This document shows, in pieces, positions 837 to 23,069 of a DNA stretch of 23,069 nucleotides. The DNA lies in the IMG/VR virus record IMGVR_UViG_3300042691_011656, positions 1-23,069 of that record; one strand, given 5' to 3'. The stretch is from a virus. Position numbers and translations under genes: made by a program. Positions within the stretch are counted from its first letter, which is position 1, and each line of letters opens with the position of its first letter. The notes beneath the pieces are model-generated. The model worked only from the letters and a program-made list of their open reading frames with translations, did not search any database and had not been told where the DNA came from.

Positions 837-976
837 TAACGCAGCACCCACACCGCAGCGCCTACTAGAACAGCCACCACAGCCACCAGGGAGCGCAGCC
901 ATAGGGGTAGCGCCCACACCACCACGAAAAGTGTCCCTAGGGCCGTCCAGGCAGCGGTGCGCTTATCTAAAGGCAT
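836..976 (-). CDS. 46-residue membrane protein, holin candidate
   Basis: A short gene, 46 codons plus TAA. It begins MPLDKRTAAW and is almost entirely hydrophobic after the charged N-terminus, with Val/Ala/Leu/Trp-rich segments at about residues 9-26 and 29-45 split by a short break containing one Arg. This is compatible with one long or two short transmembrane helices. The ATG sits 10 nt inside the end of the o-spanin gene, preceded by GAAGAGCA, and its TAA overlaps the next ATG. Those couplings at both ends argue that it is translated. Small size, membrane nature and position beside the spanins suggest a holin or antiholin. Other small membrane proteins in the cassette compete for that role. 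Confidence 0.6.
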   Translation of the reverse strand: MPLDKRTAAWTALGTLFVVVWALPLWLRSLVAVVAVLVGAAVWVLR

Positions 977-1176
977 TGCTCTTCATACAGTGCATTGTTC
1001 CAATCAATCGCCTCTAGCGCCTGGCGGTTAATCATCATGACCTCCGCTTCCTCTAGCAGCACGGGCTTTAAGGCGCAGCTTGATACGTTCAATACGTTGG
1101 GCCGTAACATCGCGCAGCCCGCCATCGGAAAGACCATCATGGAAATCACTAAGCTCTTTAAGAAGCGCTTTCTCAC
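967..1176 (-). CDS. Outer-membrane spanin lipoprotein (Rz1-like)
   Basis: A 69-residue protein with a charged N-terminus (MRKRFLK), a hydrophobic core, and the lipobox MAGC with the modifiable Cys at residue 21, giving a mature lipoprotein of about 49 residues. In o-spanins this lipoprotein is anchored in the outer membrane and binds the inner-membrane spanin to fuse the envelopes in the last lysis step. It starts with GTG, 6 nt after a near-perfect Shine-Dalgarno AAAGGAGG that lies inside the upstream gene. About 149 nt of the gene overlap the i-spanin in another frame and about 60 nt run past it, an arrangement typical of Rz/Rz1 pairs. Cys35 in the mature part could form a dimer disulfide. 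The sequence is not Pro-rich, which is unusual for classical Rz1. Confidence 0.82.
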   Translation of the reverse strand: MRKRFLKSLVISMMVFPMAGCAMLRPNVLNVSSCALKPVLLEEAEVMMINRQALEAIDWNNALYEEQCL

Positions 1177-1312
1177 GTTGGGCCTCCTTTAGCTTGGTTT
1201 CCATTTCCTGGTATTCTGCCAGTCCCTTCCCGGCCATAAATGCGGTAAAGGTACCAAGCAACGGCTTCAACGCCTCTAGCAGCGCAACGAAGGCCGCTAG
1301 CAGGCGCTCCAT
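1028..1312 (-). CDS. Inner-membrane spanin (Rz-like)
   Basis: A 94-residue protein with an N-terminal hydrophobic segment (residues about 4-30, Leu/Ala/Phe-rich) followed by a heptad-like charged helix (about 33-55, rich in Glu/Lys/Leu) and a basic C-terminal region. That is the layout of an i-spanin: an inner-membrane anchor with a periplasmic coiled coil. The identification rests mainly on the lipoprotein gene embedded in its 3' half in another reading frame. The ATG at 1312 follows the TGA of the upstream gene by one base. The first segment includes Glu and Lys, so the membrane anchor is weaker than in lambda Rz. Together with the lipoprotein it should bridge inner and outer membranes after the wall is cut. 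Confidence 0.7.
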   Translation of the reverse strand: MERLLAAFVALLEALKPLLGTFTAFMAGKGLAEYQEMETKLKEAQREKALLKELSDFHDGLSDGGLRDVTAQRIERIKLRLKARAARGSGGHDD

Positions 1313-1313
1313 A

Positions 1314-1499
1314 TCAGTTTACCACGGTTGGGCTGACAATCGGTGCCGCCACTTGTTCAATCTTATCTGCCGTAAAGGCTTTCACCGGGTCTAAGCCCAG
1401 CACCCCAGCCACAGCACCAGTACCGCCCAGGCCGAAGATAATCAGCAGCAGTTTCCAATGGCTCTTGGCAATTTGAATGGCGTTTAGCAGTACGTTCAT
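1314..1499 (-). CDS. Small membrane protein, holin-like
   Basis: A 61-residue protein with a short amphipathic N-terminus, one clear transmembrane segment (about residues 16-36, WKLLLIIFGLGG followed by Gly/Ala/Val) and a polar C-terminal tail. It begins at ATG 1499 behind a good Shine-Dalgarno (AAGGA, 6 nt spacing). It is the first gene after a 55-bp gap holding an inverted repeat, and it is followed immediately by the spanin genes. Size, single helix and position fit a holin or a holin regulator. The Gly-rich part after the helix does not match a holin class I can name, so the functional call is weak although the gene itself is well supported. Confidence 0.65.
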   Translation of the reverse strand: MNVLLNAIQIAKSHWKLLLIIFGLGGTGAVAGVLGLDPVKAFTADKIEQVAAPIVSPTVVN

Positions 1500-1508
1500 G
1501 GTCTATCC

Positions 1509-1534
1509 TTTACTTACGTTTAGCTTAAGTAAAC
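1509..1534. promoter_or_regulatory. Inverted repeat upstream of the spanin/holin genes
   Basis: The gap between the metallophosphoesterase and the small membrane protein contains TTTACTTA (1509-1516) and its exact complement TAAGTAAA (1526-1533). Nested in it is a second dyad, GTTTA (1518-1522) with TAAAC (1530-1534). The TTTACTTAC half-site is shared with the operator-like palindrome seen in four other gaps, but the left half does not fit that consensus, so it is only a possible divergent copy. There is no T-tract, which argues against a terminator. A TTGCCA hexamer lies upstream on the minus strand, with no good -10. Confidence 0.4.
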
Positions 1535-1554: not shown

Positions 1555-2406
1555 CTATATTTCCCCTACCCACTCGTGCTTGTCGTTTAACTTCATCGTA
1601 AGGTTTTGGGGCACGTTATCAATAATCGCCCCAACCGATATAATCGGGCGCGGTATAAACTTGCGAGAGTATTTAAAGGCCAGGCGGCTTTCATCAATCC
1701 CGCAACCCGTGTTCATGCCGAATAGCTGCTTACCCATGAGGGCGTTTGCCCATTCCACCTTGGCCTGGGTGTGGCGGTCAGCCATGACAAAATGCTTCCC
1801 GCAACTCTTGGCGTTCGCCGCTGCGTTCTTGGGAACCTTATCCCCGTGAACGCACACGATTGGCCCTAGGTATGGGTGTTCTAGCTCTAGGCTTGTGCCG
1901 TGTTCAGTCCACCCGTCAGGCAATCCCATGGCCTCGCGTATGCCCTTAATCACTATATCCGGTATCCCAGCTTCAGCGGCCCGTACAAGATACCGAACAT
2001 CGTGGTTTCCTGATACCATATTAGCCTCTGGGAAAATTGCGTATAGGCGCTCTCGTAAAGGGATTGTCTCGGCATATTCATCGGCTGGTGACCGCATGTT
2101 GGGATTCGTACCGTGACGGGATACGTTGCCCCAATCGTACAGGTCGCCCAGGTGGATAACCCGCGCAAACTTGTATTTGGCATTGAGCGCTTCAATCCAG
2201 CGGAAATAGTCAACGTGCTGATAGGGTAAGTGCGTGCATCCCATAAACAGCCAGTTGCCGTAAACCTTTCTTTCTGCCGCCCGCCTATTGCGTTCAACCT
2301 CAGCCTCACACACCTTGCAGCGGCGGTTTAATCGGCCCGCTTTATCCTTTCGGGTGAAGGCGCTGGCAGGAAGTATTTTTTCACAGTCACAACAGGTAAA
2401 CATCAT
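1555..2406 (-). CDS. Zinc-ribbon / metallophosphoesterase fusion
   Basis: A 283-residue protein of two parts. Residues 1-34 form a zinc-ribbon-like knuckle (C5-x2-C8, then C30-x2-C33, with a P-x-S-x-F turn between) of the sort seen at the start of some phage nucleases. Residues about 50-280 form a calcineurin-like metallophosphoesterase: GCTH (56-59), GDLYD (87-91), GNHD followed by Arg138 (133-138), VHGD (186-189) and a final ADRH (209-212). Family members hydrolyse phosphomono- or diesters with two metals. Two canonical ligands are changed: D-x-H reads C-T-H, and GHxH reads ADRH. Activity may therefore be altered. It lies alone between a terminator (2426-2454) and an inverted repeat (1509-1534), inside the lysis region. 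The substrate cannot be inferred. Confidence 0.85.
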   Translation of the reverse strand: MMFTCCDCEKILPASAFTRKDKAGRLNRRCKVCEAEVERNRRAAERKVYGNWLFMGCTHLPYQHVDYFRWIEALNAKYKFARVIHLGDLYDWGNVSRHGTNPNMRSPADEYAETIPLRERLYAIFPEANMVSGNHDVRYLVRAAEAGIPDIVIKGIREAMGLPDGWTEHGTSLELEHPYLGPIVCVHGDKVPKNAAANAKSCGKHFVMADRHTQAKVEWANALMGKQLFGMNTGCGIDESRLAFKYSRKFIPRPIISVGAIIDNVPQNLTMKLNDKHEWVGEI

Positions 2407-2425: not shown

Positions 2426-2454
2426 AAAAAGGGCAGCCGAGGGTAGCTGCCCTT
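2426..2454 (-). terminator. Rho-independent terminator after the endolysin gene
   Basis: A 9-bp perfect stem (AAGGGCAGC / GCTGCCCTT, arms 2429-2437 and 2446-2454) closes an 8-nt loop. On the minus strand it is followed by a run of T (A-run at 2426-2430 on plus). It lies 22 nt past the endolysin stop and ends the tail-protein/endolysin unit. Confidence 0.88.
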
Positions 2455-2475: not shown

Positions 2476-3009
2476 TTAGGCACCATAAGCTTGAGCAATC
2501 GCTTCGGCTGATACCTCTAAAACTCGCCGCTTCCATCCACGGCCAAAATGCTTCCAATCCGCCAGGCGCATTAAGTGCTCTAAGCGGGTCACGGAAATCG
2601 CGGCTATAACCTTCTTGGCTTCCACACGCTGCGCAGCCCGTACCGTCATCGGGCCAATCATGCCATCCACAGGCACTTTAACGGCCATTTGCAGCGCTCT
2701 TGCCGGACGGTCTGGCCCAGCGTGGTATGCCCAATCAAAAACCGCGTAATCCACGCCTGTGGGTAGAAGGTCGCCACCAATCTTATCCCAATAAAGGAAC
2801 TTGGCTATATCCTGCGCTTCTTCAATCTTGAGCGCCTTCACCATATCGGCGGTGACAATGGCTTTAGGGTTTGTGCGCCGCCGCCAATCTTGTAAAACGC
2901 CTTGGGTTACACCAAACTTGGTAGCGCCGCCGTTGTCATGGGGGTTATTAACAAAGCCGCCTTCATGCTCCATTAGAAGCTTAAAGGAACGCGGCCAGTT
3001 ATCTTTCAC
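2476..3009 (-). CDS. Endolysin, GH108 N-acetylmuramidase with C-terminal binding domain
   Basis: A 177-residue lysozyme-like endolysin that cuts the glycan strands of peptidoglycan. Residues about 8-100 match glycosyl hydrolase family 108. The signature EGGFVNNPHDNGGATKFG runs from E16, the expected catalytic acid, and is followed by a DWAYHAGP stretch. The C-terminal part (about 100-170), with VDGMIGPMTVRAAQ, fits the peptidoglycan-binding domain often paired with GH108. There is no signal peptide or SAR segment, so export must depend on a holin. The start is GTG at 3009 with no strong Shine-Dalgarno in the 62-nt gap upstream, which may lower expression. It is followed by a terminator and preceded by the XhlA-like gene. 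Confidence 0.93.
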   Translation of the reverse strand: MKDNWPRSFKLLMEHEGGFVNNPHDNGGATKFGVTQGVLQDWRRRTNPKAIVTADMVKALKIEEAQDIAKFLYWDKIGGDLLPTGVDYAVFDWAYHAGPDRPARALQMAVKVPVDGMIGPMTVRAAQRVEAKKVIAAISVTRLEHLMRLADWKHFGRGWKRRVLEVSAEAIAQAYGA

Positions 3010-19627: not shown

Positions 19628-19968
19628 TTCTTCTTGGCCAGAGATGCATAGTCCACAAGCGCAACTTCTAAAGGCGCACCATCAGGGCCAGAAAGCTCGG
19701 TGCGGTCTTTAACCTTGCCATGTAACCTATCCACAAAGAAGTTAGCCGCTTGCGTGCTGCCTTTAACCGCTGCGAGCCATTGGCCTTCCAGAATAGCCCG
19801 TAAACGCTGTTTCTCCGTGCCGTCCTTGCTCTTGGCTACCTCAAGCAGGAACTCATCAAAAACCTTCTCAATCGTGCGAGAAGCGGAGCCGCCCTTAGGG
19901 TTGCCTGACTGGCCTTTTTGCCATGACTGCGGTTGCAAGTTAGCGAGAGAATTAGGATGCTTTGCCAT
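19624..19968 (-). CDS. Candidate terminase small subunit (DUF5681-like)
   Basis: A 114-residue protein whose N-terminal part holds WQKGQSGNPKGGS (about 16-28), the hallmark of DUF5681 proteins encoded beside phage terminases. A helical part (about 32-80) and a LSGPDGAPLEV segment follow. Being immediately upstream of terL with a 4-nt overlap, it probably recognises the packaging start, though DUF5681 itself has not a firmly proven role. It overlaps the methyltransferase gene end by 17 nt. There is no classical helix-turn-helix that I can call with certainty. Confidence 0.7.
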   Translation of the reverse strand: MAKHPNSLANLQPQSWQKGQSGNPKGGSASRTIEKVFDEFLLEVAKSKDGTEKQRLRAILEGQWLAAVKGSTQAANFFVDRLHGKVKDRTELSGPDGAPLEVALVDYASLAKKK

Positions 19969-21175
19969 CTACTGCAACCTCTACTGCAAAAGGTTGCCCG
20001 TTTCGTTTCACGGGCAAATCTGGAAATAGCTTAGCCATGCGCTGCACAATCACATCGCAATACTTCTCGTCCAGTTCCATCAGGTAAGCCGTGCGCCCTA
20101 GCTTATGGGCTGCAACCATGGTGGAACCAGAGCCGCCGAAAAGGTCGAGAACGATGTCCCCGCCCTTTGTGTTGTTGCCGATCTGATACTCAATCAGATT
20201 CACAGGCTTCATCGTGGGGTGTTCGCCATTACGGCTTGGGCGATCAAACTTGAGAATAGTGGTCTGCTTGCGGTCAGAGGCCCAGAGGTGCCCTGCGCCA
20301 TCTTTCCATCCGTAGAGACAAGGCTCATGCTGCCAGTGGTAGTCTTGGCGTCCCATAACCATGGACTGCTTCTGCCAGATAAGACACTGACGGACTTGCC
20401 AACCAGCGTCTTTGCAGGCCCCGCGGAAATTGTAACCTTCGGAGTCGGCGTGCCAGATGTAGAACACAGCGCCTGGTTTCATGGCGGAGGAGGCTGCTAT
20501 AAATGCGTCCGACAGGAACTGGCGAAATCCGCTGTCGTCCATCTTGTCGTTCTGAATAGTGAGGGCGTCCTTGGTCTTGCCTTCGTAAGCAATGTTATAC
20601 GGCGGATCGGTTACCAGTTGGTCGGCCAATACGCCGTTGCGCAGCTTATCCACATCATCAATCAGCGTGCTATCCCCACACATGAGACGGTGCGGGCCTA
20701 TCTCATACACGTCCCCACGGATTGTCTTGGCAATGGCGGGAGCAGCAGGCGCTTCATCCTCATCACCCGCAGGATCGTTGACCACGCCTTCTTGCTTGGG
20801 TAGTAGGTCTTCGGGGAAGCCCCAATCAGCAAGCTCTTCTGGCGTGAAGTCATTAGCCAGCGCGTCCATATCCCACTCACCAGCTTGCAGGTTATCGCGG
20901 ATAAGCAATCGGCGGTATTCCTCTTCGGTAAGCTCGCGGCTTGGTGTCAGGACTTGGATTTCCTTCCAGCCAAGCTCTTTCAGTACGCGAATACGCTGGT
21001 GGCCACCAATTACCTTAAGGTCAGGCGTGCACAGAATGCGCTGGTGAAAGCCGTCTTGCTCTATGCTTGCTTTAAGCTTGGCGTAGGCGTCTTTGCTAAT
21101 ACGGCGTGGGTTGCGCTCATAAGGCTTAAGGTCTTTAAGCTGCGCGGTGGTTTCTGACCACTTAATTTCCATCAT
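19952..21175 (-). CDS. ParB-like domain / DNA methyltransferase fusion
   Basis: A 407-residue protein. Residues 1-100 form a ParB/Srx-type nuclease-like domain with NPR (22-24), SIEQDGF (37-43) and VIGGHQR (55-61). After an acidic Ala/Pro linker (about 130-150) comes a DNA methylase domain with DPPY (190-193) and the AdoMet-binding FGGSG (346-350). DPPY before FGGSG gives a beta-class N6-adenine (or N4-cytosine) enzyme. Such ParB-methyltransferase fusions are common next to phage terminases and likely protect phage DNA from host restriction or mark it for packaging. No cognate endonuclease is nearby, so it is an orphan. AAAGGA precedes the ATG. A palindrome element is just upstream (21201-21216). 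Confidence 0.93.
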   Translation of the reverse strand: MMEIKWSETTAQLKDLKPYERNPRRISKDAYAKLKASIEQDGFHQRILCTPDLKVIGGHQRIRVLKELGWKEIQVLTPSRELTEEEYRRLLIRDNLQAGEWDMDALANDFTPEELADWGFPEDLLPKQEGVVNDPAGDEDEAPAAPAIAKTIRGDVYEIGPHRLMCGDSTLIDDVDKLRNGVLADQLVTDPPYNIAYEGKTKDALTIQNDKMDDSGFRQFLSDAFIAASSAMKPGAVFYIWHADSEGYNFRGACKDAGWQVRQCLIWQKQSMVMGRQDYHWQHEPCLYGWKDGAGHLWASDRKQTTILKFDRPSRNGEHPTMKPVNLIEYQIGNNTKGGDIVLDLFGGSGSTMVAAHKLGRTAYLMELDEKYCDVIVQRMAKLFPDLPVKRNGQPFAVEVAVDGKAS

Positions 21176-22474: not shown

Positions 22475-22741
22475 CTATATCGGTTTAACTGGTAGTGGTG
22501 GGAGTATAACGTCTTTATATTTGCTCATGTTCAACTTTTCATCGCCTGGCGCAAACGGTTTCCAAGCAATCAAATTGTATTTTCGCGATTCCGCCATATG
22601 AAAAACAACCGCATCAGGGTTGCGCTTGCTGGCACGAGCCGCGTAAACATAATAAATTCTGTTTTGTTTACCGCAGTTGTCCCAAAGCCCCCAGAATACC
22701 GTCCCATCCTTCGGCGCAGTGCTAATATCTTGCCATTCCAT
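22475..22741 (-). CDS. Hypothetical protein with WQDISTAPKDGT motif
   Basis: An 88-residue soluble protein beginning MEWQDISTAPKDGTVF, a motif (W-x-x-I-x-T-A-P-K/R-D-G-T) that I recognise in many small phage and bacterial proteins of unknown function. The rest includes VFHMAESRKYNLIAWKPF, where the late W-K/R-P is also typical of this group. No signal peptide. It follows the lipoprotein gene after 11 nt, with GAGG close to the ATG. Role unknown. Confidence 0.75.
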   Translation of the reverse strand: MEWQDISTAPKDGTVFWGLWDNCGKQNRIYYVYAARASKRNPDAVVFHMAESRKYNLIAWKPFAPGDEKLNMSKYKDVILPPLPVKPI

Positions 22742-22752
22742 ATCCTCGCTTT

Positions 22753-23069
22753 CTAGTTCGGTTTACAGTCATACCCATCAAACCCCACCACCATGCGGTA
22801 GCGGTTGTCTAATACCCAATCCCCTACCTGTACGGCAGCATGTGCTTGACCAGTAGGAAGCCGACAGCGGAACTGTACGGGTATTTCACCCATACTGATT
22901 AGCTCTGCCTCGTAAGCGTTCGCAAACCCCACACAATTTGTCTGGTAGGGCTTCAGGTGCGCTGGCTTACGGTTTGCCGGGTACTCAGCATATTCCAGGC
23001 GGCTATCCACACGGGCTTTGGCTTGCTCTAGGTGAGCAGGGGCACAGGCGGCTAGTAGAGGGAAAAGTA
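22753..23069 (-). CDS. Lipoprotein with transglutaminase-like cysteine peptidase fold (5' end outside window)
   Basis: The open frame continues through the right edge. Upstream of a GTG at 23010 the same frame encodes LFPLLAAC then APAHLEQAKA, which is a type II signal peptide with lipobox LAAC. I therefore read this as the mature part of a lipoprotein whose start codon lies beyond the window. Numbering from the GTG, Cys26 (TNC), His57 (QAHAAVQVGDW) and Asp68 (WVLDN) match the Cys-His-Asp order and spacing of BTLCP/transglutaminase-like cysteine peptidases. This family call is by motif only. Location would be the inner or outer membrane, facing the periplasm. Its role in a phage is unclear: envelope remodelling, entry or superinfection exclusion. 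Confidence 0.68.
   Translation of the reverse strand, partial: LFPLLAACAPAHLEQAKARVDSRLEYAEYPANRKPAHLKPYQTNCVGFANAYEAELISMGEIPVQFRCRLPTGQAHAAVQVGDWVLDNRYRMVVGFDGYDCKPN

Follow-up and report, generated by a model that had tools for sequence, protein, structure and literature searches.

A Ribbon-Fused Metallophosphoesterase with Two Altered Metal Ligands in a Phage Lysis Cassette, a Variant within phrog_221

Does a phage metallophosphoesterase (MPE) remain an enzyme when two of its metal ligands have been exchanged, and what would such a protein do among lysis genes? Both questions are raised by one gene of the 23,069-base virus record IMGVR_UViG_3300042691_011656, which we analyzed over its full length and call the window. 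The gene combines a Cys in motif I with a second exchange, to the residue that inactivated a tested relative, and offers a clean test of whether a two-metal site rebuilt in this way is compatible with MPE catalysis. Its place beside endolysin and spanin genes in two otherwise dissimilar-looking phages raises the question of a role for a phosphoesterase at lysis. We give even odds (a probability of about 0.5) to the reading that the protein is an active, re-ligated metal-dependent phosphodiesterase acting on nucleic acid. It would belong to the phrog_221 lineage and, within it, to a small subfamily defined by three traits that go together: a Cys4 ribbon at the N-terminus, a Cys for the motif-I Asp, and an Asp where GHxH has its first His. 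Statements cited to PMC12287305, PMC4176325, and PMC6115819 refer to parts of those papers.

RESULTS

The ORF at 1555..2406 encodes a metallophosphoesterase

The ORF at 1555..2406 is read from the minus strand, a point left unstated in the preliminary description, and encodes 283 amino acids; the plus strand of the same interval is interrupted by stops. In a profile search, residues 44 to 281 matched phrog_221 (metallo-phosphoesterase) with an E value of 1.1e-33, and the protein scored 27.7 bits against Pfam Metallophos (PF00149), for which the cut-off is 21.5. As sequence matches, these are far above chance. Codon usage supports coding. The codon index of the ORF was 0.686, above all five other frames at the locus (0.507 to 0.632) and slightly lower than that of any of the ten other window genes compared (0.695 to 0.847). 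We found no near match to the window in a nucleotide search of the phage collection and no match in the plasmid sequences searched. Phmmer found no match to the MPE among PDB sequences, and the family profile gave E values of 0.17 or higher there. None of five proteins scanned matched an NCBIfam profile.

We modeled the protein with AlphaFold2 (33 sequences) and obtained a pLDDT of 86.9, with values of 58 to 77 over the first 50 residues. The best solved folds in Foldseek were LpxH, Vps29, and YfcE. VIA-align placed the PolD DP1 exonuclease subunit, LpxH, and YfcE at Z scores of 15.1 to 15.2, with 167 to 206 residues aligned at an rmsd of 3.1 to 3.2 Å, and the best viral fold match was the phosphoesterase of Pseudomonas phage Andromeda. 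The predicted structure thus has the MPE fold. Vps29 is not known to be catalytic. Because it stands among the matches alongside LpxH, YfcE, and the PolD exonuclease subunit, the fold does not decide activity.

Two metal ligands are replaced and the others are retained

We found that GDLYD (residues 87 to 91), GNHD (133 to 136), and VHGD (186 to 189) are intact, while motif I reads G-C57-T-H59 and motif V reads A209-D210-R211-H212. Codon 57 is TGC (2236..2238, minus strand), and codons 209 and 210 are GCT and GAC (1777..1782, minus strand). The preliminary description had read a ribbon-MPE with these three intact motifs, Cys57, and ADRH, and this is confirmed by the translation, the codons, and the phrog_221 match.

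The first set of relatives held 86 sequences from among the matches listed: 80 IMG/VR loci and six phage records. The latter (L003 to L008) were the ones aligned of the best 60 among 636 phage records matched by tblastn with the window MPE. Position 57 is Asp and positions 209 and 210 are Gly-His in all 86. His59, Asp91, and the following residues are invariant in the 86 relatives and the window: Asp88, the predicted bridging ligand of GDxxD (2143..2145); Asn134 and His135 of GNHD, a predicted metal ligand and the predicted catalytic His (2002..2007); His187 of VHGD, also a predicted metal ligand (1846..1848); and His212, the final His of motif V (1771..1773), all on the minus strand. The window protein therefore shares motifs II to IV with the phrog_221 MPEs, which include those of Autographiviridae, pelagiphages, and Bxb1 (gp47), and differs from them at position 57 and at positions 209 and 210. 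The canonical ligand set (DxH, GDxxD, GNH, H, GHxH) is incomplete through Cys57 and Ala209-Asp210 and is otherwise kept; with these changes the protein is homologous by descent to the PF00149 superfamily and is not a canonical dinuclear MPE. The earlier proposal of a modified phosphoesterase agrees with the family matches and both ligand exchanges; that the protein is catalytically active is our inference.

When we widened the set to 158 ORFs at 155 loci, again among the matches listed, position 57 was Asp (154), Cys (2), a gap (1), or Pro (1), and position 210 was His (151), Asp (2), Phe (2), or a gap (3). Both Cys57 rows and both Asp210 rows were L145 and L149. The remaining odd rows were truncated or split ORFs (L138, L142, L143), a badly aligning opposite-strand ORF of L143, and two remote ORFs of L144. 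L145 is identical to L149 over 8,109 bases, and L220, recovered in a pattern scan described below, is the same contig as L145; we therefore counted the three as one sequence, L149. In Planctomycetota bins, single genomes carry two or three D-x-H copies on separate contigs (L128 and L132; L129, L133, and L142; L136, L139, and L143), and some of these copies are split or truncated where a contig ends.

A second, distant protein shares all three traits

The L149 MPE (L149:4989-5834) is 37% identical to the window MPE over its length. The window ribbon spans residues 5 to 33 (C5-x2-C8 ... C30-x2-C33; 2308..2394, minus strand), and L149 shares its four Cys residues together with F17 and G24. L149 has Cys at position 57 and Asp at position 210, its motif V being G-D-K-H, and retains H59, D88, D91, N134, H135, H187, and H212. 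Its profile scores were 9.9e-40 for phrog_221 and 21.8 bits for Pfam Metallophos (cut-off, 21.5). Among the matches listed, the Cys4 ribbon occurred in 3 of 202 ORFs with a recognizable motif I, all three being the L149 sequence, and at least 40 residues precede motif I in 60 of the 202. Asp210 was seen solely alongside the ribbon and Cys57 among the sequences examined.

Further searches left the count at two. A viral scan using the window and L149 pair found no additional member of the subfamily. Tblastn with the L149 MPE matched 635 records, and 24 of the best 25 alignments start past the ribbon, the other at residue 20. An A-D-x-H pattern scan gave seven stretches, none homologous to the window MPE. 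Of two scans of genome contigs, one gave no relative, and the 18 loci from the other all lacked Cys57, Asp210, and the ribbon. The subfamily thus rests on two distinct sequences among the matches listed, and more members may exist. It is a previously undescribed variant within a known phage MPE family, phrog_221. By title and abstract, and with subscription papers mostly outside the scope, the literature on phage MPEs with a zinc ribbon, a lysis cassette, or CxH did not describe it; one paper names a calcineurin-like ORF and, in the part cited here, names the lysis cassette apart from that ORF (PMC6115819).

As far as compared, the two proteins appear to come from different phages. When we compared the window ORFs by blastp with 10.8 of the 33.5 kb of L149, the matches beyond the MPE were one 25-residue piece and one alignment antisense to the MPE gene. 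Searches of the complete L149 record for the window TerL and portal, run without a positive control, found neither. None of 29 records carrying a TerL related to that of the window phage matched phrog_221; many of these records are short fragments, and the result says little. The 25-residue piece, with the shared segment WQDI.TAPKDGT, is 48% identical between the window at 22475-22741 (minus strand; ORF 22478-22762) and L149 7638-8147 (minus strand).

The preliminary description had asked for an alignment to see whether Cys57 and Asp210 are conserved as a subfamily, and both are found, with the ribbon, in distant L149. It had also held that close homologues with Asp and His at these sites would point to a decayed copy or a sequencing error. 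Nearly all other relatives do have Asp and His, but decay does not follow from this, because the closest homologue shares both changes.

Cys at motif I recurs in phage MPEs

A scan for C-x-H-x-P-[YF] ... GD-x2-D returned 48 stretches (L196 to L243), all of them open MPE-like frames with [GS]NH, in 26 groups below 80% identity. Cys57 is present in all 48 by design of the pattern. All nine of the proteins that were scanned match phrog_221. Position 210 is His in 44, as opposed to the Asp of the window; it is Asp in one (L220, the L149 sequence) and is not covered in three. Position 209 is Gly in 39 of the 48, and in six it is Ala, Cys, Val, or Ser, so we did not count Ala209 as a meaningful change. 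We built a tree of 54 sequences in which 17 of the 48 C-x-H proteins were combined with relatives reduced in redundancy at 70% identity, with split or remote rows and columns 57 and 210 excluded. At least four changes between Cys and Asp at motif I are required on this tree. The nearest row to the window is L149; no starred branch contains the window, and long branches caution against further reading.

The alignments thus indicate that a motif-I Cys recurs in phage MPEs, and the 48 stretches rule out that Cys57 is peculiar to the window gene. The RNA lariat debranching enzyme Dbr1 has an invariant Cys in place of the motif-I Asp, and this Cys is essential (PMC4176325). Given the recurrence in phages and this essential Cys, Cys57 is likely a working residue, by analogy. 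The motif-I Cys was treated as an exception in the Dbr1 paper (PMC4176325), whereas C-x-H phage MPEs are numerous.

We rejected membership in Dbr1 itself, since the window MPE has no intact GHxH and shows no evidence of extra parts. The GHxH is intact in Dbr1. The window protein ends with the MPE domain, and Dbr1 was absent from the best 50 rows of either Foldseek or VIA-align. What the two share is the motif-I Cys. Dbr1 carries a lariat recognition loop plus a C-terminal domain (PMC4176325); the window MPE carries an N-terminal ribbon and A-D-R-H.

The ribbon resembles those of DNA nucleases

Residues 1 to 52 of the window protein gave weak, partial matches to four PHROGs annotated as endonuclease VII, HNH, or endonuclease (6.7e-5 to 6.5e-3), and the ribbon region of L149 matched endonuclease VII/HNH PHROGs at 3.9e-7 at best. 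The likeness to these families (phrog_1035, phrog_2255, phrog_2633) lies in the Cys4 ribbon region of both proteins and is confined to the N-terminal part; the window MPE lacks an HNH or endonuclease VII catalytic part. We therefore rejected an identity as an HNH or endonuclease VII nuclease. Modeled alone, the ribbon gave a pLDDT of 62.6, too weak for naming its fold. Six relatives with N-terminal extensions were scanned against Pfam; four showed HTH or sigma-70 region 4-like matches, none of which reached the cut-offs, and the remaining two showed no match. One C-x-H relative had a Myb-like N-terminal match below the Pfam cut-off. Of the two roles first suggested for the ribbon, binding of nucleic acid or of protein, the former is better supported, by the endonuclease VII/HNH-like ribbon and the HTH/Myb-like relatives below cut-offs.

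The gene lies in a lysis cassette in both phages

On the minus strand of the window, the order is endolysin (2476..3009; glycosyl hydrolase 108 plus PG_binding_3, by PHROG and Pfam matches), hairpin, MPE, a 61-amino-acid ORF, a 94-amino-acid ORF, and an overlapping Rz1-like ORF. The terminator-like hairpin in the gap between endolysin and MPE (2429..2454, minus strand) has 9-bp perfect arms followed by T's, with a folding energy of -17.6 kcal/mol (z, -2.33), and was missed by a simple terminator pattern scan. A perfect 8-bp inverted repeat found by repeat search (1509..1533) lies past the MPE gene. The 61-amino-acid ORF (1314..1499) has one hydrophobic segment by eye and no PHROG or Pfam match; it is holin-like by position alone. 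The 94-amino-acid ORF (1028..1312) has no family match and is a putative Rz (i-spanin) by its position and its overlap with the Rz1-like spanin ORF (967..1176; phrog_1275, 4.7e-5). The gene had been placed between a terminator and an inverted repeat in the lysis region, and the hairpin, the repeat, and the flanking endolysin and spanin-like ORF bear this out.

In L149, the order is an Amidase_2 endolysin (3.1e-14), a 67-amino-acid ORF, MPE, a 56-amino-acid ORF with a weak holin PHROG match (0.0018), an Rz-like spanin (phrog_1026, 3.3e-7), and an overlapping Rz1-like spanin (phrog_1275, 1.6e-12). Both phages thus have the cassette endolysin, MPE, small ORF, Rz, Rz1, and the endolysin families differ. 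The common position suggests a tie to lysis or late expression, as a hint from two cases and not as proof.

Near 25 C-x-H relatives (76 of 84 neighbor proteins scanned), the best 25 of 66 families included methyltransferases, endonucleases, exonucleases, NinG, polynucleotide kinase, head maturation protease, and terminase; no lysis family was among these 25. For 32 first-set relatives, 120 of 121 neighbor proteins were scanned; nucleotide kinase families lead with 9 proteins, and two endolysin families, with four members each, are among the best 25 of 154. The lysis-cassette place looks particular to the ribbon lineage.

The equivalent His-to-Asp change abolished toxicity of a relative

Gp48 of mycobacteriophage A10ZJ24, a cluster A phage MPE linked to evasion of host defense, was reported to degrade DNA in vitro, and D10G, D41V, and H175D each abolished its toxicity (PMC12287305). 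Its homologue A1SD1 gp49 lost lysis in three motif variants, including one matching H175D (PMC12287305). Our translation of the primer listed in that paper identifies His175 as the first of the two His residues in GHxH, and an alignment of Bxb1 gp47 (pair E value, 1e-4) puts that His on window Asp210. From the primers and this alignment, Asp41 corresponds to Asp88, which is kept, Asp10 to Cys57, and His175 to Asp210. The window MPE thus keeps only the Asp41 equivalent of the Gp48-type ligand set. By alignment, the natural state at position 210 corresponds to a loss-of-function change in this relative, made there in a D-x-H background.

The cluster A group of Gp48 includes Bxb1 gp47, which is, like the window MPE, a phrog_221 member (4.5e-116) and has D-x-Q as motif I. 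Gp48 differs from the window MPE in having Asp and His at the two exchanged positions, both needed for toxicity, and is expressed early (PMC12287305). The Bxb1 MPE gene sits amid DNA metabolism genes, whereas the window MPE gene sits amid lysis genes.

DISCUSSION

The metal site is either rebuilt or non-catalytic. We favor rebuilding because GNH, the bridging Asp, and the last His are kept and metal-capable replacements are found in two distant proteins. On this reading, the ribbon would dock the protein onto nucleic acid. Metal 1 would be held by Cys57, His59, Asp88, and His212, in a Cys-containing site as in Dbr1, and metal 2 by Asp88, Asn134, His187, and Asp210; both assignments draw on the alignment and on general knowledge of the family. 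His135 would assist phosphodiester hydrolysis. The product would probably act late in infection, given that the gene lies among lysis genes, perhaps on host or phage nucleic acid. By inference, nucleic acid is the likeliest substrate in view of the HTH/Myb-like N-termini (below cut-offs), the likeness of the ribbon to endonuclease VII/HNH ribbons, and the neighbor families. The DNA degradation by Gp48, linked through Bxb1 gp47 in phrog_221, points the same way by analogy (PMC12287305). A fuller version is one we offer tentatively, as possible and somewhat doubtful: the two exchanges would compensate for each other, a Cys metal 1 pocket with an Asp in metal 2 would have been fused to the ribbon and fixed in lysis cassettes as a late-acting nuclease, and a change lethal to the function of a canonical relative would be functional here. 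Against activity stand the toxicity lost by the His-to-Asp variant of Gp48 and the lysis lost by the A1SD1 gp49 variants (PMC12287305), the count of two sequences, and the low confidence of the ribbon model.

The same Gp48 result would fit a non-catalytic adaptor, in which the MPE fold, its metal site weakened, would serve to bind nucleic acid or a protein partner. Two ligands are altered, and Bxb1 gp47, a phrog_221 member with D-x-Q at motif I, is described in the cited part of the paper as lacking phosphoesterase activity (PMC12287305). The recombination directionality function of Bxb1 gp47 offers one precedent, and Vps29, among the fold matches, offers another. Yet both the window and L149 retain GNH, the bridging Asp, His187, and His212. 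Both replacements are metal-capable, and the two distant proteins have the same ones, a pattern not expected from drift once catalysis has been lost. We regard the adaptor as a serious rival that is nonetheless unlikely. The protein might instead hydrolyze a small nucleotide or signaling molecule, for example, in counter-defense, in which case the ribbon would serve stability or protein binding. Use of monoesters, diesters, and cAMP is mentioned for phage D29 Gp66 (PMC12287305), and nucleotide kinases make up 9 of the 120 neighbor proteins of the 32 relatives. However, some relatives carry HTH/Myb-like N-termini (below cut-offs), the ribbon resembles those of DNA nucleases, and methyltransferases, endonucleases, and exonucleases are among the listed C-x-H neighbors. 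We consider this reading improbable, and we found nothing that points to a signaling nucleotide, which the preliminary description had offered as a substrate. Decay of the gene or a sequencing error could account for the change of two canonical ligands and for a codon index slightly under those of the other window genes. The ORF is intact, Asp to Cys takes two base changes, and both replacements recur with the ribbon in L149, which largely refutes this account; we rejected it as very improbable.

Two further features of the window were noted by eye. A possible 82-amino-acid gene lies beyond the lysis region on the plus strand (85-333), the large ORFs of the window being on the minus strand. 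At 19952-21175 (minus strand), a ParB-like domain appears fused to a DNA methyltransferase, adjoining the terminase genes.
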